From Terriglobia bacterium (GTDB lineage: Bacteria > Acidobacteriota > UBA6911), in assembly GCA_020072565.1 (NCBI GenBank), contig JAIQGI010000042.1, positions 1-62,048 of the forward strand: a DNA stretch of 62,048 nt. The letters run 5' to 3'. Below, in pieces: positions 46,106-55,075 of this stretch; positions within the stretch are counted from its first letter, which is position 1; every line of letters starts with the position of its first letter. The position numbers and the translations under genes were made by a program. The notes beneath the pieces are model-generated. The model was given only the letters and a program-made list of their open reading frames with translations. It had not been told where the DNA came from and did not search any database.

Positions 46106-46421
46106 AGAGTTTTCCTCCTTTGTTGGGATCACTGCTGTTGGATCGAATATGCAATGACGATTAGCATTGCCTCGCGGAGCCAGTCAAGCGAAATCCGCGC
46201 CAGTCGCACGATCCCGGCCCCCCAACCCGGCGACCAAGGACAAAGCCAGGCATTCGTCATCAGGGGATCCGCGAACCCTGCACTGCAAATAATATTGAAA
46301 AGCAAAAGATTGACGCATAGGCCGTGGAGGGCAGCAGAGAGTGCGGTGCATTTCAGGCGTCGTCCCCCTTGTATTTACGCCGTGGGAGCGGTTAGAGTTA
46401 TTCGCCCTCACAGGAGAAACA
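46106..46421. other. Divergent intergenic region
   Basis: 316 bases between HU (-) and the GH57 gene (+). A frame is open upstream of the GH57 start but has no ribosome site and looks non-coding. The ribosome site caggag (46411-46416) for the GH57 gene lies at the right end; no other structure seen. Confidence 0.4.
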
Positions 46422-48581
46422 ATGGCGAAGAAGCCGCTGTGTATCGCTTTTCTCTGGCACATGCACCAGCCGGATTACGGCAATGAGGAGACCGGCGAGA
46501 TCTATCTGCCCTGGACGAGGTTCCACGCCGTCAAGGATTACTACGACATGGGCGCTCTGGCGGCCCAGGTTCCGGGCATACACATCACCATTAATGTCGT
46601 GCCCTCCATGATGGATCAGCTCGAAGCCTACGCTCAGGGCTCAGCGCGGGAAACCTATGCAGCGCTCACGCTCCGCAAGGCCACGGAGCTCGATGAGCGA
46701 GAAAAGTCCTTTCTGCTCCGGAGTTTCTTTCAGCTCCCCTGGAAGCAGATGATTCTCCCCTATCCGCGCTACAAGGAGCTCCTCGATCGGCGCGGCTCGC
46801 CTGACGCCCAGGGCGAATACAGTGCCGCTCTGAAGCGCTACTCGAGCCAGGATTACCGCGATTTGCAGGTCTGGTTCAACCTCAGCTGGTGCGGCAATGA
46901 GTTGAGGCGCGATCCCGCAATCGCTGCGATGCTCCACAAGGGAAGGGACTTCACGGAGGAGGAGAAGGTGCACTTGCTGGACCTTCAGGCCGCCTTCATC
47001 GGCCGGATTCTTCCCCTCTATCGGAAGCTCCTTGAAGAGCACGGCGTGGAGATCTCCGTGTCTCCCTATTATCACCCGATTCTGCCGCTGCTGTTCGACA
47101 GCCGTTCGGCGCGCGAGGCCACACCCGACATCACACTGCCGGCCAACCAGTTCTCCTGCCCGGCGGATGCGCGCGAGCACGTGGCGCGCGCGCAGGGTCG
47201 TTTCCGGGAGGTTTTTGGGCAGGCGCCCCGGGGCATGTGGCCGTCCGAGGGATCCATCAGCGACGCAGCATCCGCGTTAGCTCAGGAAGCAGGGCTGCGC
47301 TGGCTGGCATCCGACGAAGGCGTGCTGCTGAATTCATTGAGGAAGTCGGGACACGGCGGCGGAGCGCTCACGCCGGAACAAAGGTGTTGTGTCTGGAGCC
47401 GCGCCGGGGGGCCGGCCCTCTTCTTCCGCGATCACGCCCTTTCGGACCTGATCGGATTCACCTACGGGCGCTGGAACACCGACGAGGCCGTCGGCGACTT
47501 CCTGCAGCGGCTGCGCTTGATCCACGACGCACTGCCGGATGATGGGCGCCATTACGTGGTGCCGGTGATCCTCGACGGAGAGAATGCGTGGGAGCATTAC
47601 CCCCGAAATGGGGCGGAGTTCCTCGCGCTGCTCTACCGCAGGATGATGGAAGCCGACTTTCTGCGCACGGTGACCTTCTCCGAGTTTCTCGACCTGGAGG
47701 CACACCGGGAGCCGCTCGATACCATTGCCGCCGGCAGCTGGATTTACAGCTGCCTTACCACCTGGATCGGCCATCCGGAGAAGAACGCGGCGTGGGATGC
47801 CCTCACGGCTGCCCGCCAGGCGTTCGCGCGCCTTGAGCGCGAAATCACGGACACGCGGCAACGGGACAGGGCCCTCCAGGAAGTGATGATTGCCGAAGGG
47901 AGCGACTGGTTCTGGTGGTACGGCGACGACCACCAGACGGAGAACGCCGTCGAGTTCGACACCCTCTTCCGCAGCCATCTCAAAAACATCTATCGGCTGC
48001 TCGGTCAAGCCTGTCCCGCAGGGCTGGATGTTCCCATCAAGAAGGCGGATGTCCGGACGCAGTACCGGAATCCCGTTCACACCATGACGCCCCAATTGGA
48101 TGGCAAGGTGACCGACTACTTCGAATGGCTGGCGGCCGGTTTTGCCACTCCTGCCGGCGGCGGAGCGATGCACCAGGTAGTGCGCCATCTGGAAAAGGTC
48201 TATTTCGGCTTCGACGCCGCTCGATTCTACATGCGCCTGGACTTCACAGGCGGGCTGCAAAAACTGCCGCCCCAGGTGTCGGTGCGACTGCACTTCATGG
48301 CGCCTAAGGAATGCCGGATGGTGGTGGATCGGTCCGCCGAGCGCTGGGACTGCAGCGAGTTCAGGTCTCCCGTCGCGGATCAGGCACCCACGGTGGCCGG
48401 CGCCAAAATTCTGGAGATCGGCATCCCGCTCAAGGCTCTCGGCGTCGCGGAGCCGGATGAAATCCGGTTCTTCATCGCGCTTTTCGAAAAGGACCGGGAG
48501 CTGGAGAGGTTTCCGTCCACGGGCCTCCTGGTCGTGCCGGTCGATCCCTGGCGCCTGGATGAACAGGAGTGGATAGTATAG
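46422..48581 (+). CDS. Glycoside hydrolase family 57 enzyme (alpha-amylase/glucanotransferase type)
   Basis: 719 residues from ATG 46422. Conserved GH57 regions: HMHQPDYG (13-20), WFNLSWCG, GMWPSEGS with the probable nucleophile Glu276, and DGENAWEHY. The extra C-terminal part (about 560-719) is beta-rich and resembles a DOMON-like or carbohydrate-binding module by pattern only. GH57 enzymes hydrolyse, transfer or branch alpha-1,4-glucans. First of a colinear alpha-glucan cluster; the next gene starts directly at its stop codon (no gap). Confidence 0.92.
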   Translation: MAKKPLCIAFLWHMHQPDYGNEETGEIYLPWTRFHAVKDYYDMGALAAQVPGIHITINVVPSMMDQLEAYAQGSARETYAALTLRKATELDEREKSFLLRSFFQLPWKQMILPYPRYKELLDRRGSPDAQGEYSAALKRYSSQDYRDLQVWFNLSWCGNELRRDPAIAAMLHKGRDFTEEEKVHLLDLQAAFIGRILPLYRKLLEEHGVEISVSPYYHPILPLLFDSRSAREATPDITLPANQFSCPADAREHVARAQGRFREVFGQAPRGMWPSEGSISDAASALAQEAGLRWLASDEGVLLNSLRKSGHGGGALTPEQRCCVWSRAGGPALFFRDHALSDLIGFTYGRWNTDEAVGDFLQRLRLIHDALPDDGRHYVVPVILDGENAWEHYPRNGAEFLALLYRRMMEADFLRTVTFSEFLDLEAHREPLDTIAAGSWIYSCLTTWIGHPEKNAAWDALTAARQAFARLEREITDTRQRDRALQEVMIAEGSDWFWWYGDDHQTENAVEFDTLFRSHLKNIYRLLGQACPAGLDVPIKKADVRTQYRNPVHTMTPQLDGKVTDYFEWLAAGFATPAGGGAMHQVVRHLEKVYFGFDAARFYMRLDFTGGLQKLPPQVSVRLHFMAPKECRMVVDRSAERWDCSEFRSPVADQAPTVAGAKILEIGIPLKALGVAEPDEIRFFIALFEKDRELERFPSTGLLVVPVDPWRLDEQEWIV

Positions 48582-50261
48582 ATGGGCAAGGTCAGTCTTC
48601 CGCCGGATGAAATCATCTCGCTGATCACAAGGCTCAAACGTCTGGCGGGCAACCTCTGGTGGACGTGGAACCAGGATTGCCAGGATATTTTCCACGGTCT
48701 CTCACCGCGCGGGTGGCAGAACCTCTATCACAATGCGGTCGCGGTCCTTCACGAGGTATCGGATTATGAACTGGGAGTGCGCCTGCAGGATCCAAGGTTC
48801 GCTGCCCAGGTGCGCGGGGCGCTCAAATCCTTCGAGGCTTACTTGAACGACACCAACACGTGGGGTTTGCGGCACGCGCCCGCATTGCAGAAGCATCCGG
48901 TGGCGTATTTCACGGCCGAGTTCGGCTTTCACGAGACTCTGCCCATTGCCGCGGGCGGCCTGGGCATCCTGGCCGGGGACCACGCCCGCTCGGCCAGTGA
49001 CCTCGGAATCGGCTTTGTGGGTGTCAGCCTGTACTATCGCGAGGGCTATTTCCAGCAGGCGATCAACCACGATAACTGGCAAACCGAGTACTATACTCTG
49101 CTGAATCCCAAGATCCTGCCGGTCGAGCCGGTCCTGAAAGCCGACGGCACCCCGCTTACCTGCTATGCGGACATCGACCTCAGCCGCGTCTGCTTCCAGG
49201 CCTGGCGTGTCAATGTCGGCCGTTGCCAGGTCTACCTGCTGGACTGCGATCGCCCTGAAAACGAGCAGCGCTACCGCGACCTGACGCTTCACGTGTACGG
49301 AGGCGACAACACGACCCGCATCATGCAGGAGCTGCTTCTCGGCATCGGCGGCGTGCGCCTCCTGCGCGCTCTCGGCGTCCAGCCGTTGGTGTATCACATC
49401 AACGAGGGGCACGTGGCCTTCCTGGCCGCCGAGCTGATGAGAGAGAAGATCGCCCAAGGTGCTTCCTTCGCCCAGGCCCTGGAGGCGACCAGGACTGAAT
49501 GCCACTTCACCACTCACACACCGGTGGCGGCCGGACACGACCGTTTTTCGCCGGAACTGGTGCGTTATGCGTTCCACCGAATCCTGCCTCAAATGACCTC
49601 GTCCCCGGCGGAATTCCTGGCCCTGGGCCGGATTCATCCGGGGGATGCGAACGAGACCTTTTGCATGACCGTCCTGGCCCTGAGGGCTTCCCGCACCGCA
49701 AACGCGGTCAGCGAACTCCACGGGCAGGTGAGCAGAAAGATGTGGCACTCGCTCTATCCCGACCGCACCGTGGACGAAGTGCCGATCGGCCACATCACAA
49801 ACGGCATCCACTTGCTGGGCTGGATGAAGGGGCCGGTGCGCAGCTTCTGGAAGCGCAAGCTCGGCGCGCGCTGGGCCCGTGAGATTCACACCCAGGCGTT
49901 CTGGGAGAAAATGCTCGATCCGGAGTTTGTGTCCGACGAAGAGCTTTGGTCGCTCCGCTACATGCTGCGCCGGGCTCTGATCGAGTACGCGCGGCGCCGC
50001 TCTCCGCACATGGGAGCGCACCGGTCGCAACCCGAGTTTATCCACCTCGATCCGCTGTTGAATCCCGACGCCCTGACGATCGGCTTCGCGAGGCGTTTCG
50101 CGACCTATAAACGCGCCCCGCTGGTTTTTCAGAAATTCGAGGACATCGCAAGAATGGCCACCGATCGCGAACGTCCCATCCAGTTCATCTTCGCCGGCAA
50201 GGCGCACCTGATGGATCACGAGGGCAAGCGCTACATCCAGCACATCCTTCCGCAACCATAA
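48582..50261 (+). CDS. glgP: Alpha-glucan phosphorylase, C-terminally truncated
   Basis: 559 residues; relatives of this short glycogen-phosphorylase type usually exceed 700. The N-terminal half is well conserved: RLAGNLWWTWNQD, YFTAEFGFHETLPIAAGGLGILAGDH, CHFTTHTPVAAGHDRF, IGHITNGIH, and TIGFARRFATYKRAPL. The protein stops after FIFAGKAHLMDHEGKRYIQ. The downstream part that holds FLEDYDM, the PRRPLEASGTSGMKA motif and the PLP-binding lysine is absent, and I found no remnant in any frame of 50262-50549. Unless restored elsewhere it cannot be an active phosphorylase. Possible causes: natural deletion or an assembly join. Context: GH57 before, galT and glgA after. Confidence 0.88.
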   Translation: MGKVSLPPDEIISLITRLKRLAGNLWWTWNQDCQDIFHGLSPRGWQNLYHNAVAVLHEVSDYELGVRLQDPRFAAQVRGALKSFEAYLNDTNTWGLRHAPALQKHPVAYFTAEFGFHETLPIAAGGLGILAGDHARSASDLGIGFVGVSLYYREGYFQQAINHDNWQTEYYTLLNPKILPVEPVLKADGTPLTCYADIDLSRVCFQAWRVNVGRCQVYLLDCDRPENEQRYRDLTLHVYGGDNTTRIMQELLLGIGGVRLLRALGVQPLVYHINEGHVAFLAAELMREKIAQGASFAQALEATRTECHFTTHTPVAAGHDRFSPELVRYAFHRILPQMTSSPAEFLALGRIHPGDANETFCMTVLALRASRTANAVSELHGQVSRKMWHSLYPDRTVDEVPIGHITNGIHLLGWMKGPVRSFWKRKLGARWAREIHTQAFWEKMLDPEFVSDEELWSLRYMLRRALIEYARRRSPHMGAHRSQPEFIHLDPLLNPDALTIGFARRFATYKRAPLVFQKFEDIARMATDRERPIQFIFAGKAHLMDHEGKRYIQHILPQP

Positions 50262-50549: not shown

Positions 50550-51578
50550 ATGCCTGAACTACGACACGATCCGATACAGAAACGGTGGGTCATCATCGCC
50601 TCCGAACGCGGCCGCCGACCCGACGATTTCCCGCGGCCGGAATTGGGCACAGCGGGCGGATTTTGTCCCTTCTGCGCGGGCAACGAGAGCAAGACGCCTC
50701 CGGAGATCGCAGCGATACGCTACGACGGACGGGGGCCGAATTCCCCAGGCTGGCAGGTGCGCGTAGTCCCCAACAAGTTTCCCGCGCTGCGCATCGAAGG
50801 CGAGCTGGATCGCAAAGGCATCGGCATCCACGACCGGATGAACGGGGTGGGCGCGCACGAAGTCATCATCGAGACTCCACGCCACGACCTGAGCCTGGCT
50901 GACATGCCGGTCGAGGATCTCAAGAAAGTGATCTGGATGTATCGCGAGCGTCTGATCGATTTGCTGCGTGATTTCCGCTTCAAGTACATCCTGATTTTCA
51001 AGAATTACGGGGCGGCCGCAGGAGCTTCCCTCCCGCACCCGCACACCCAGATCATTGCCACTCCCGTTACGCCTCTCACTATAGCGCAGGAGTTGTCCTC
51101 GGCAAGAGACCACTACCGTTATAAGGAGCGTTGCATCTTCTGCGATGTCATCGAGCAGGAGGTGGAGTCCGGGGAGCGCATCGTCATATCGAACGATCGT
51201 TTCGTCGCCCTCGCGCCCTACGCCTCGCGCTTCCCCTTCGAGCTTTTCTTGGCGCCACGGTACCACTACCACAGCTTTGCCGAAATCAGCGACGGCATGA
51301 TCCATGACTTGGCGCTTGCGCTCAAGGAAGTGCTGTCGAGAATCAAGAAATGCCTGAACGACCCACCCTACAATTTTTTGATACATACCATTCCCAACGT
51401 GAGGGTGATGCCCAAGCGTACCGCTTATTGGGACACCATCGCGGTCGACTACCACTGGCACATCGAAATCATGCCTCGCCTTACCCGCATCGCCGGTTTT
51501 GAGTGGGGTACCGGTTTCTACATCAACCCCACGGCGCCGGAAGAAGCGGCCAAATACCTCCGGGAAGTAGAGCTATAA
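50550..51578 (+). CDS. galT: Galactose-1-phosphate uridylyltransferase
   Basis: 342 residues. HIT-superfamily enzyme exchanging UMP between UDP-glucose and galactose 1-phosphate. Zinc-site Cys39 and Cys42 (FCPFC), active-site HPH at 163-165 in SLPHPHTQIIA, and the C-terminal DYHWHIEIMPRLTRIAGFE. Next to glgA, a pairing also seen in other bacteria, where it may supply or recycle nucleotide sugars for glucan synthesis. Confidence 0.94.
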   Translation: MPELRHDPIQKRWVIIASERGRRPDDFPRPELGTAGGFCPFCAGNESKTPPEIAAIRYDGRGPNSPGWQVRVVPNKFPALRIEGELDRKGIGIHDRMNGVGAHEVIIETPRHDLSLADMPVEDLKKVIWMYRERLIDLLRDFRFKYILIFKNYGAAAGASLPHPHTQIIATPVTPLTIAQELSSARDHYRYKERCIFCDVIEQEVESGERIVISNDRFVALAPYASRFPFELFLAPRYHYHSFAEISDGMIHDLALALKEVLSRIKKCLNDPPYNFLIHTIPNVRVMPKRTAYWDTIAVDYHWHIEIMPRLTRIAGFEWGTGFYINPTAPEEAAKYLREVEL

Positions 51579-51665
51579 TTAGTCACATGAGAAGCTCTTT
51601 GCGGGAGCTCCGGGAGCAGGCGGCAAAAAAACCGATTCCAGGTTCGCATGTACCCGAGGGGTGGC

Positions 51666-53165
51666 ATGGCAAAACAGGATCGCAGGCACATTGTAACCTT
51701 CTCTGCTGAAGCTGCGCCTTACATCAAGGTGGGAGGGCTGGCAGATGTGGTCGGCGCTCTGCCAAAAATGCTCGAGAAACTAGGCGCGCAGGTTACCGTA
51801 GTCCTGCCCGCGTATCAGGTAATTGCCCGCGAGCAGTTCGGCATCCATCCCAGCGCCACCGTCCCCCCGTTCGACATCCTCGTGGGATCAGACGCCGTGC
51901 GCGTCGAGGTTGCCCAAACAGCCATGCCCGGAACAGGTGTGGAAGTGTTCTTTCTGGGCGGAGGAGGATATTTTTCGCGCGCAGGCGTTTATGACGACCC
52001 GGTGACCAAGGAAGGATATCCGGACAACATGCAGCGCCTTGCTTTCTACGCCAAGGCGGGCCTCGAACTGCTGCTCAGACTGGGACAGCCCGTGGACGTG
52101 GTCCATTGTCACGATTCGCAGACCGCGCTCATTCCAGGGTTGCTACGCACAGTGCATCTGAATGACCCTTTTTATCGCCAGACGGGGTGCCTCTTCACGA
52201 TTCACAATCTGGCTTACCAGGGCCTGTACCCCAAAGAAGCCCTGCGCTGGGCAAGGATCGATCCCAGGCATTTTTCCACTCCTTCCCCTTTCGAGTTCTG
52301 GGGCAAGGTGAACTTCATGAAGATTGGCATCGAGACCGCCGACCTTGTGAATACCGTGAGTGAGACCTATGCGAAGGAGATCCAGTCCGGTCCCGAATAC
52401 GGTTCTGGCTTGGAAGGGGTCCTGAAAATGAGGGCGAAGGATCTGTACGGAATCGTCAACGGCATCGATTATGACGAGTGGAACCCGGAGACTGACCCGC
52501 TGATCGCGGCGCGTTATTCCACTCAGGATCTCTCGGGCAAAGCCAGGTGCAAGGCCGCCCTGTTGCAGGCCATGAGGCTCCCTCAGCAAAAGGGGAGAGT
52601 TCCCCTGATCGGGATCATCTCGCGGCTGGCCGACCAGAAAGGCTTTGATCTGATCGGGGATGCCATCGAAGAAATCGCGGCTGCGGACCTGCAGATGGTC
52701 GTACTCGGAACCGGCCAGATCAAATACCATGAGCTGTTCGAGAACATCTCCTCCCGCTATCCGCGAAAAATCGCAGTCAAACTCGGGTTCGACAACCAGT
52801 TGGCCCATCAGATCGAGGCGGGCGCCGACATGTTCCTGATGCCTTCCAAGTACGAGCCCTGCGGGCTGAACCAGCTTTACAGCTTGCGTTACGGGACGGT
52901 CCCGATCGTGAGGTCTACCGGCGGGCTTGCCGACACGATCACGGATTACAATCTCCAGAGTGACAGCGGGACCGGGTTTGTTTTCAGGGATTACACCGCA
53001 GCGGAGATGATGACCACGATCGAGCGCGCACTCGTCGTCTTTGCAGATTCGGAGCGCTGGCGCCGACTCGTGGTGCGTGACATGCTGCAGCGCTGGTCCT
53101 GGGAGGAATCGGCGCGCAAGTACATGCAACTGTATGAGAAGATTTATCGGAGAAGACACGCCTGA
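51666..53165 (+). CDS. glgA: Glycogen synthase
   Basis: 499 residues from ATG 51666, preceded by gagggg at the right spacing; another ATG six codons upstream is less likely. GT5 family: KVGGLADVVGALP (21-33), VVHCHDSQTALIPGLL, IHNLAYQGLYP, GIVNGIDYDEWNPETD and the C-terminal FLMPSKYEPCGLNQLYSLRYGTVPIV. Transfers glucose from ADP-glucose (or UDP-glucose) to the growing alpha-1,4-glucan. Followed 60 bases later by the kinase-like gene. Confidence 0.95.
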   Translation: MAKQDRRHIVTFSAEAAPYIKVGGLADVVGALPKMLEKLGAQVTVVLPAYQVIAREQFGIHPSATVPPFDILVGSDAVRVEVAQTAMPGTGVEVFFLGGGGYFSRAGVYDDPVTKEGYPDNMQRLAFYAKAGLELLLRLGQPVDVVHCHDSQTALIPGLLRTVHLNDPFYRQTGCLFTIHNLAYQGLYPKEALRWARIDPRHFSTPSPFEFWGKVNFMKIGIETADLVNTVSETYAKEIQSGPEYGSGLEGVLKMRAKDLYGIVNGIDYDEWNPETDPLIAARYSTQDLSGKARCKAALLQAMRLPQQKGRVPLIGIISRLADQKGFDLIGDAIEEIAAADLQMVVLGTGQIKYHELFENISSRYPRKIAVKLGFDNQLAHQIEAGADMFLMPSKYEPCGLNQLYSLRYGTVPIVRSTGGLADTITDYNLQSDSGTGFVFRDYTAAEMMTTIERALVVFADSERWRRLVVRDMLQRWSWEESARKYMQLYEKIYRRRHA

Positions 53166-53225
53166 AGATCGGGTGTGGATTTGTGTGGGAAACGCGGATC
53201 TTGATCCGCTTCCAGATTTTGGACT

Positions 53226-54692
53226 ATGAGTGTGCAAGATCTTTCCCAGTCTGCTTTCGCAGCCGCCTCCCTGGAAGGTCGCCTCGCCGAGCTGACCATC
53301 CTCTACCACGTCAGCCACGCGCTCCAGAAAACGGTGGATGAAGAGAAGGCGCTGTACATCATCCTCGTCGGGGTCACGGCTGGAAGGGGCCTGGGCTTCA
53401 ATCGCGCTTTCGTGTTGCTGCTGGATGAGGAGGCGAAGACGCTGCGCGGCCGGCTCGCCATCGGTCCCGAGACGCCGGAGGAAGCATTCGGAATCTGGCA
53501 GGATCTGCAGGAAAAACACGAATCCCTGGGCGACCTTCTGGACTCCATCCTCACCACAGAAATCAAGAAGGACAGGTGGGTTAACGAACTTGTTTCCCGC
53601 ATACTGATCCCCCTGGGCGACGGCACGAGCCCGCTGGTCCGGATCCTGAAGTCTCACGAGTCCGCCCGTGCTGTCAAAGGCGTGTTCATGCCGCACGGCC
53701 TTCCCGTCGACGAGGAGTTGATCCGGCTGTTTGGCACGGATGAGTTCGCTGTAGCCCCACTTTTCCTTGCGGAAAAAGATCTGGGGCTCTTGATCGCCGA
53801 TAACGCCATCGCACGTGTTCCGATCGACATCGCCACCCTCAGGCTCCTGGAAATATTCGCCCAGGAAGCGAGCGCAGCCATCCAGAATACCCGGCTCTAC
53901 CAGCGCTTGATGGGTCAGATCAAAATCTCCGAGGGCCAAAACGTAACCTTGCGCGAAAGCCAGCAGCAGCTTCTGAAGGTGGAGAGGCTTTCGACCATGG
54001 GCAGGCTGGCTACCTTGCTGGCATTCAGAATCCGGGCTCCTCTGGCATCCATCGGAGGCTTTGCCAGAAGGCTGCTGCGCACGATGCCGCACCAGGATCC
54101 CCGAAGAGAAGAAATGGAGTTCATCGTATCGGACGTCTCCCGTCTGGAGAGGTTGGTCGAGGAGGTGCTCGCTTACCGCAGGATCTCCAATCCGGAGTTC
54201 AAGCCGACAGACGTCAACGCATTGGTGCAAAGCGTTCTCATCACGATGCAGGATGAGACCCAGCGAGGTTCCGTGCACACGATGCTGCGGTTCAAACCCG
54301 ATCTCCCGATCGCACGGATCGACGAACTCCAGGTGCGGCAAGCCCTGATGAACCTCGTATCCAACGCCCTCGAAGCCATGCCTGCCGGCGGGACCGTTAC
54401 CGTCACGACCTCCGCCGACACCGAGTTTCTGGAGATCGAGGTCCGCGACACCGGGATCGGCATCCCGAAGCAGAACTGGAACAAGCTGTACAAGCCGTTC
54501 TTCACGACCAAGACCACGGGTACAGGGCTGGGGCTTGCCATCGTGGGTCAGGTCGTGGAAAACCACCACGGATCTCTCCGCTTCAAGAGCGCGCCCGGAG
54601 AGGGAACTGCCTTCACCATGCGGCTGGCCATCAATCCCGAGGGCGAGCTCGCAGCGCCGGTTCGCGCAGCCGCGGCGCAATTTGAGGAGTAG
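53226..54692 (+). CDS. GAF-domain histidine kinase-like protein lacking the phosphoacceptor histidine
   Basis: 488 residues, cytoplasmic (no membrane segments). GAF-type sensor region about 18-240, dimerisation helices from about 250, then the ATPase domain with N-box NLVSNALEAMP (about 374-384), G1 DTGIGIP (408-414), F-box FFTTKT and G2 GTGLGLAI. The H-box, normally AHEIRNPL, reads AFRIRAPL: the His is Phe267, the Glu is Arg268 and the Asn is Ala271. SIGGFARRLL right after it matches active relatives. The catalytic domain seems intact, so the protein may be an ATP-binding sensor, a phosphatase or a partner for another kinase. Five bases before a response regulator. Confidence 0.9.
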   Translation: MSVQDLSQSAFAAASLEGRLAELTILYHVSHALQKTVDEEKALYIILVGVTAGRGLGFNRAFVLLLDEEAKTLRGRLAIGPETPEEAFGIWQDLQEKHESLGDLLDSILTTEIKKDRWVNELVSRILIPLGDGTSPLVRILKSHESARAVKGVFMPHGLPVDEELIRLFGTDEFAVAPLFLAEKDLGLLIADNAIARVPIDIATLRLLEIFAQEASAAIQNTRLYQRLMGQIKISEGQNVTLRESQQQLLKVERLSTMGRLATLLAFRIRAPLASIGGFARRLLRTMPHQDPRREEMEFIVSDVSRLERLVEEVLAYRRISNPEFKPTDVNALVQSVLITMQDETQRGSVHTMLRFKPDLPIARIDELQVRQALMNLVSNALEAMPAGGTVTVTTSADTEFLEIEVRDTGIGIPKQNWNKLYKPFFTTKTTGTGLGLAIVGQVVENHHGSLRFKSAPGEGTAFTMRLAINPEGELAAPVRAAAAQFEE

Positions 54693-54697
54693 AAGCA

Positions 54698-55075
54698 ATG
54701 AACACCATCCTGATTGTCGAGGATGACAGGAACCTGCTCAGGCTGTACCAGGCCGAGATGGAAACCGAAGGCTATCGCGTACTGCTGGCCAAAAACGGCA
54801 ACGAAGCGACGGAATGTGTGGCAAGAGAGACCCCGGATTTGATCATTATGGATATCCGGATGCCCGATAAGGATGGGCTCGACGCCATGGCCGAAATCCT
54901 CCGCAATCATGGGAAGATTCCCATCATACTCAATAGTGCCTACTCCTCCTACCAGGACGATTTCCTCACCTGGGCCGCCGACGCTTATGTCATCAAGTCT
55001 GCCGACCTGGAGCCTCTCAAGATCAAGATCCGTGAGATCCTCAGCCTGCGCGAGGATCCGCTGTCCCGCAGATGA
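54698..55075 (+). CDS. Stand-alone response regulator receiver protein
   Basis: 125 residues, single CheY-like domain. Acidic pocket Glu8, Asp9 and Asp10, phosphoacceptor Asp52 (IIMDIRMPDKDG), Ser80 and Lys100 (YVIKSADLEPLK) are all present, so the domain is chemically competent. No output domain; it must act by protein contact. Five bases after the kinase-like gene (gaggag in between), so co-translated with a kinase that lacks its own histidine. Confidence 0.92.
   Translation: MNTILIVEDDRNLLRLYQAEMETEGYRVLLAKNGNEATECVARETPDLIIMDIRMPDKDGLDAMAEILRNHGKIPIILNSAYSSYQDDFLTWAADAYVIKSADLEPLKIKIREILSLREDPLSRR

Follow-up and report, generated by a model that had tools for sequence, protein, structure and literature searches.

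The window, a stretch of 62,048 nucleotides from a Terriglobia bacterium (contig JAIQGI010000042.1), contains a GAF-type histidine kinase gene from a family attached to alpha-glucan operons in several phyla. The catalytic residues of its H-box have been replaced in this lineage, while conservation elsewhere in the protein is normal. The best explanation, to which we give about an even chance of being right, is that the product is a lineage-specific pseudo-histidine kinase serving as a binding module like DivL of Caulobacter crescentus. We infer a loss of activity, binding to the receiver, a partner kinase and a link to glycogen metabolism. Few bacterial pseudo-histidine kinases are understood, DivL being the main worked example. 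The kinase in the window and the canonical members of its family, which share its operon and receiver, are a natural before-and-after pair for probing the role of a transmitter once its chemistry is removed and its ATP site is kept.

The gene (53226-54692, on the forward strand, as are all features of the window given here except one) encodes 488 amino acids and was identified by Pfam matches, an AF2 model and orthologs at 40% identity. It comprises a GAF domain (approximately residues 16-225), a DHp domain (approximately 244-328) and a CA, or HATPase_c, domain (approximately 345-470). The H-box reads ERLSTMGRLATLLAFRIRAPLASIGGFARR, and codons 265-273 (54018-54044) specify L A F R I R A P L, with TTC at 54024-54026 as codon 267. 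FRIRA is found at 54024-54038 in place of HExRN: Phe267, Arg268 and Ala271 stand where the canonical HExxN has His, Glu(+1) and Asn(+4) (H267F, E268R and N271A with respect to relatives). The register of the H-box is free of gaps in the alignment with every ortholog of about 40% identity. The codons and this alignment confirm the original prediction that the His, Glu and Asn of the box are changed. Its wording that the box is wholly replaced was too strong: AHE(I/V)RNPL has indeed become AFRIRAPL, but R270, P272 and L273 are kept.

Histidine is the phosphate acceptor in HisKA kinases. Of the features of an active kinase of this type, the protein retains the N, G1, F and G2 boxes of the CA domain, but it has lost both the phosphoacceptor His (Phe267) and the acidic residue at H+1 with Asn or Thr at H+4 (Arg268, Ala271). 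With the homology and fold of a histidine kinase and no phosphoacceptor, it probably belongs among the pseudo-histidine kinases. The Pfam HisKA model barely passes (28.7, with 26.9 required) and matches from residue 268 on, just after the missing His. The HATPase_c match scores 97.4 bits. The N-box core NLVSN (N376, N380; 54351-54365), the G1 box DTGIG (D408, G410, G412; 54447-54461) and the F box, lid and G2 box FFTTKTTGTGLGL (F425-L437; 54498-54536) are intact, as had been predicted, and the CA domain deviates at none of its 14 family-invariant columns.

For the replacement, each of the three codons must have changed at two or more nucleotides, at least six in total. An assembly or sequencing error is very improbable. 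The genome is in 135 contigs with an estimated contamination of 3.8%, and may be a metagenome assembly, but at least six clustered substitutions in three catalytic codons with the frame intact are not an error pattern, and the neighboring genes are syntenic with those of a genome of the same genus. It is just as hard to believe that the kinase is active on another residue, such as H289 or a Tyr or Ser. H289, the sole candidate for a shifted phosphoacceptor, does lie within the DHp hairpin, but it is a loop residue with no counterpart in relatives, and the +1 acid and the +4 Asn have also gone. We know of no precedent for an alternative phosphoacceptor in HisKA kinases.

Five bases after the kinase gene begins a gene for a stand-alone receiver of 125 amino acids with no output domain (54698-55075). 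All of its catalytic residues (D9, D10, D52, S80, K100) are present, in agreement with the earlier reading, and none of 17 family-invariant columns deviates. Upstream lie genes for a GH57 glycoside hydrolase (46341-48581), a truncated GlgP of 559 amino acids (48582-50261), a GalT-like hexose-1-phosphate uridylyltransferase (50550-51578) and the glycogen/starch synthase GlgA (51648-53165), giving the order GH57-glgP-galT-glgA-HK-receiver. Scans for promoters, terminators and repeats gave nothing above chance.

Whole-genome searches turned up orthologs of the kinase at about 40% identity in four families of the class besides its own (G015, G016, G017 and G019); another 33 genomes in the sample of its phylum contain more distant ones. 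A GTDB-wide scan yielded relatives in Calditrichota, Planctomycetota, Nitrospina, Scalindua, Syntrophobacterales, Rokubacteria and others. In 34 of 40 relatives the fetched flank includes one or more of GH57, galT and glgA, and the same receiver subtype, a KS-x-D-L type, usually follows the kinase. The window likewise has a GAF kinase and such a receiver near GH57, galT and glgA. The operon in the window is therefore one version of a multi-phylum conserved alpha-glucan operon, GH57-[glgP]-galT-glgA-HK-receiver, and the suspected tie to the glycogen genes is real, the kinase-receiver pair being a conserved operon member in many phyla. Attachment of a GAF kinase and stand-alone receiver to GH57, galT or glgA was seen across many phyla (L047-L065, L066-L076, L091-L101). 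The association of such a pair with glycogen and alpha-glucan genes of several phyla is apparently undescribed: no account of it came up in the open-licence literature searched, which is weak negative evidence.

The His of the H-box is kept in all 40 alignable full-length relatives collected and in 29 of 29 inspected kinase paralogs of the same genome. On the latter count, the possibility that kinases of this genome have generally lost their His was rejected. Because all alignable relatives and the 29 paralogs retain His, the replacement is, by these comparisons, derived and seen in one genome so far. The sample from the whole-genome searches, for which the 250-residue GAF part served as query, is unbiased by the H-box; the GTDB scan is biased toward canonical members, as the His is part of one of the two patterns that it used. 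No subfamily with conserved Phe, Arg and Ala was found in 396 genomes of the phylum, the class sample or the GTDB contigs, and a single-protein search of genome contigs gave no match. The idea that the three replacements might be conserved in homologs thus did not hold: orthologs align with a normal H-box.

Other departures from the canonical motif were seen in the operon family. The acidic +1 residue is often lost (THMIKNP, THTIKNP, THSVKNP, THQLRNP and SHQLRNP, observed in L050, L058, L075 and L076, and in L047, L049, L051-L057 and L059-L065), so that it is not universally needed there. One member with an adjacent receiver (L048, G373:C56) has kept its His but has broken CA boxes (N376T, G412P, F425E, K429R, G432S). 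This degeneration is the opposite of that in the window kinase, and the protein might be a phosphotransfer protein.

Kinase and receiver are both absent from 14 of 14 other genomes examined of the same taxonomic family, most of which have glgA; the system is thus dispensable there. In the same-genus genome G001, GH57-glgP-galT-glgA is followed 45 bp on by a convergent acyl-CoA dehydrogenase gene. The pair is cleanly missing in G001, and in the window it sits exactly between the glgA and acyl-CoA dehydrogenase genes. Since other families also have the pair in this position downstream of glgA, the simpler history is that the lineage of the window retained it and its relatives lost it. Insertion of the pair by transfer is possible.

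These observations bear on the most serious alternative, that the gene is a silenced relic: the two-component system would have become useless in this family, and the loss of the H-box, through drift, through selection to switch the protein off or through one multi-nucleotide event, would be an early stage of gene death, recent enough for the rest to be intact. We consider this plausible, if the less probable reading. Three signs of erosion are present at the locus. The first is the discarding of the pair by relatives, with glgA adjoining the next gene in G001. The second is the operon glgP, which is 79% identical to its homolog in G001 (L077, 709 amino acids) up to residue 556 and then lacks approximately 150 C-terminal residues, including the EASGTSGMK region, which we take to hold the cofactor lysine. 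No continuation was found in any frame before galT, and the genome has two full-length glgP genes elsewhere. The third is the loss of the PAS domain from the kinase. Class- and phylum-level orthologs mostly carry this domain, the class-level ones in full, and the window kinase retains only what alignment shows to be its tail (53226-53270); the upstream part is missing, and 60 bp separate the gene from glgA.

Against silencing, the 488 codons contain no stop or frameshift, the GC content by codon position is what a live gene would show, conservation of the receiver is complete, and the changes fall exactly on catalytic residues. Among columns invariant in all other orthologs, the kinase deviates only at H267 and N271. 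With the nearer set of orthologs E268 also deviates, and E303 shows a mild change to D. The GAF domain deviates at none of six invariant columns, which with those of the CA domain makes 20 family-invariant residues unchanged. In leave-one-out profile scoring against 19 relatives (bits per site), the H-box scored 1.32 compared to 3.49 (SD 0.20) in relatives. The remaining regions were in the normal range, within about 1 SD of the relatives: 1.25 compared to 1.30 (SD 0.29) for GAF, 1.37 compared to 1.64 (SD 0.28) for DHp minus the H-box, and 1.52 compared to 1.71 (SD 0.18) for CA. The kinase lies modestly farther from an outgroup than canonical orthologs do, its branch is not much lengthened, and once the H-box is left out DHp is no farther from the outgroup than theirs. 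The neutral chance of three codons being hit so heavily with 20 invariant codons spared is at most about 1e-6, or 7e-9 when the stop-free frame is included, a post hoc bound that assumes independent point mutations and that a single multi-nucleotide event escapes. Decay without constraint, through point mutations arising independently, is improbable. The proposal of a selected function fares well in that the pattern is unlike unconstrained decay; selection itself remains an inference, and silencing or decay is a serious rival because glgP is truncated, the PAS domain is missing and the pair has been lost family-wide.

As regards structure, the AF2 model of the kinase (pLDDT 86) has folded DHp and CA domains and matches ADP-bound ZraS (9jfj) and DivL (4q20). 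In HisKA phosphatase chemistry, H260 and T264 of HK853, at H and H+4, hold the catalytic water, and the H260A and T264A mutants retain regulator binding (PMC5727384). Because all three catalytic residues have gone, the window kinase is predicted to be dead as kinase and phosphatase yet capable of binding: it should neither autophosphorylate nor dephosphorylate the receiver through a His/Asn pair. The original prediction that catalytic chemistry is lost with the ATP site preserved is supported by the residues.

DivL offers the closest parallel. Tyr replaces its His, and it has no kinase or phosphatase activity; it binds DivK~P specifically, for which R553, the Arg at +3, is required, and its Y550F variant still binds phosphorylated DivK (PMC4211667). 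Like DivL (PDB 4q20), the window kinase has an aromatic residue for the phosphoacceptor His and a retained DHp-CA fold. R553 (+3) and P555 (+5) of DivL correspond to R270 and P272, which are kept, and the remainder of DHp is not accelerated. Both proteins have a single-domain receiver partner, DivK for DivL and, by operon position, the adjacent receiver for the window kinase. They differ in the sensor, which is PAS-based in DivL and GAF in the window kinase, in the operonic receiver and glycogen genes of the latter, and in its additional replacements at +1 and +4. DivL also has a role toward CckA and DivK for which no counterpart was seen in the window kinase.

The ancestor of the gene was the GAF-type histidine kinase that accompanies a stand-alone receiver in the GH57-galT-glgA operon of several phyla. 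Its phosphoacceptor His, adjacent Glu and +4 Asn were replaced in the lineage of the window, with the DHp-CA fold retained along with the ATP site and docking surface. On the binding-module reading, the resulting DHp-CA dimer, responsive to GAF and ATP, would dock the receiver, preferably once this has been phosphorylated by another kinase or a small donor, and would then hold or report it, or modulate another kinase, as DivL does with DivK. ATP, together with whatever the GAF domain senses, would set the conformation of the binding module. A more specific version, in which a catalytically silent, ATP-responsive transmitter reads the phosphorylation state that another kinase sets on a stand-alone receiver and links this state to energy or sugar status, is speculative, and we rate it as rather doubtful. 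If true, it would represent an independent DivL-like inversion of information flow outside the Alphaproteobacteria and outside cell-cycle control. Against the binding-module explanation stands the restriction of the state to one genome, with no second copy to speak for its stability.

The DivL analogy does not by itself account for the intact CA domain, since DivL binds ATP weakly and can dispense with its own CA domain. The ATP site, a feature unneeded in DivL, leaves room for a heterodimer, in which the CA domain of the window kinase phosphorylates the DHp His of another kinase in trans. FasB and FasC of group A Streptococcus have been proposed to form such a heterodimer, with one supplying kinase activity and the other the phosphoacceptor His (PMC12675982), and kinase matches in the genome of the window number about 50. 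The likeness lies in the proposed division of labor between kinase-like proteins; in that system FasC has kept its His, FasB provides the kinase domain and the genes are adjacent (PMC12675982), whereas the operon in the window has no such partner. The best paralogs in the genome are 33-38% identical in the DHp-CA part only, and R268 stands where an acidic residue would lie beside the phosphoacceptor. We regard splitting of the chemistry as unlikely. Two membrane-type kinases of the same genome (L003, G000:C30:61521-62195; L016, G000:C72:18140-18844) have H-boxes LAHD(M/I)(K/R)TPLVAIG, near the VAIGGF of the family. They are possible partners, since no receiver match was found in the fetched flank of either.

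Other kinase-like proteins resemble the binding module proposed here in part. RocA of group A Streptococcus likewise acts without phosphoacceptor chemistry, but its dispensable His is kept and its CA domain is degenerate, the reverse of the window kinase, and it is a membrane partner of CovS (PMC7028121). A pseudokinase variant of ChrS in Corynebacterium glutamicum is a catalytically dead transmitter acting through interaction; it differs in being a laboratory-evolved loss of CA with the His present (PMC9491836). The canonical GAF kinases with a receiver (L066-L076, L091-L101) are direct orthologs (26-42% identity) that mostly occupy the same place in the operon and are paired with the same receiver subtype. 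They differ in that all keep His267 and most have H-E-x-R/K-N, and in the extra PAS domain of the class-level members.

On the reverse strand, an open frame of 851 codons (52143-54698) runs opposite glgA and the kinase gene and is probably a by-product of high GC at third codon positions. Oar-like TonB receptors, which may point to Acidobacteriota, are also present in the window.
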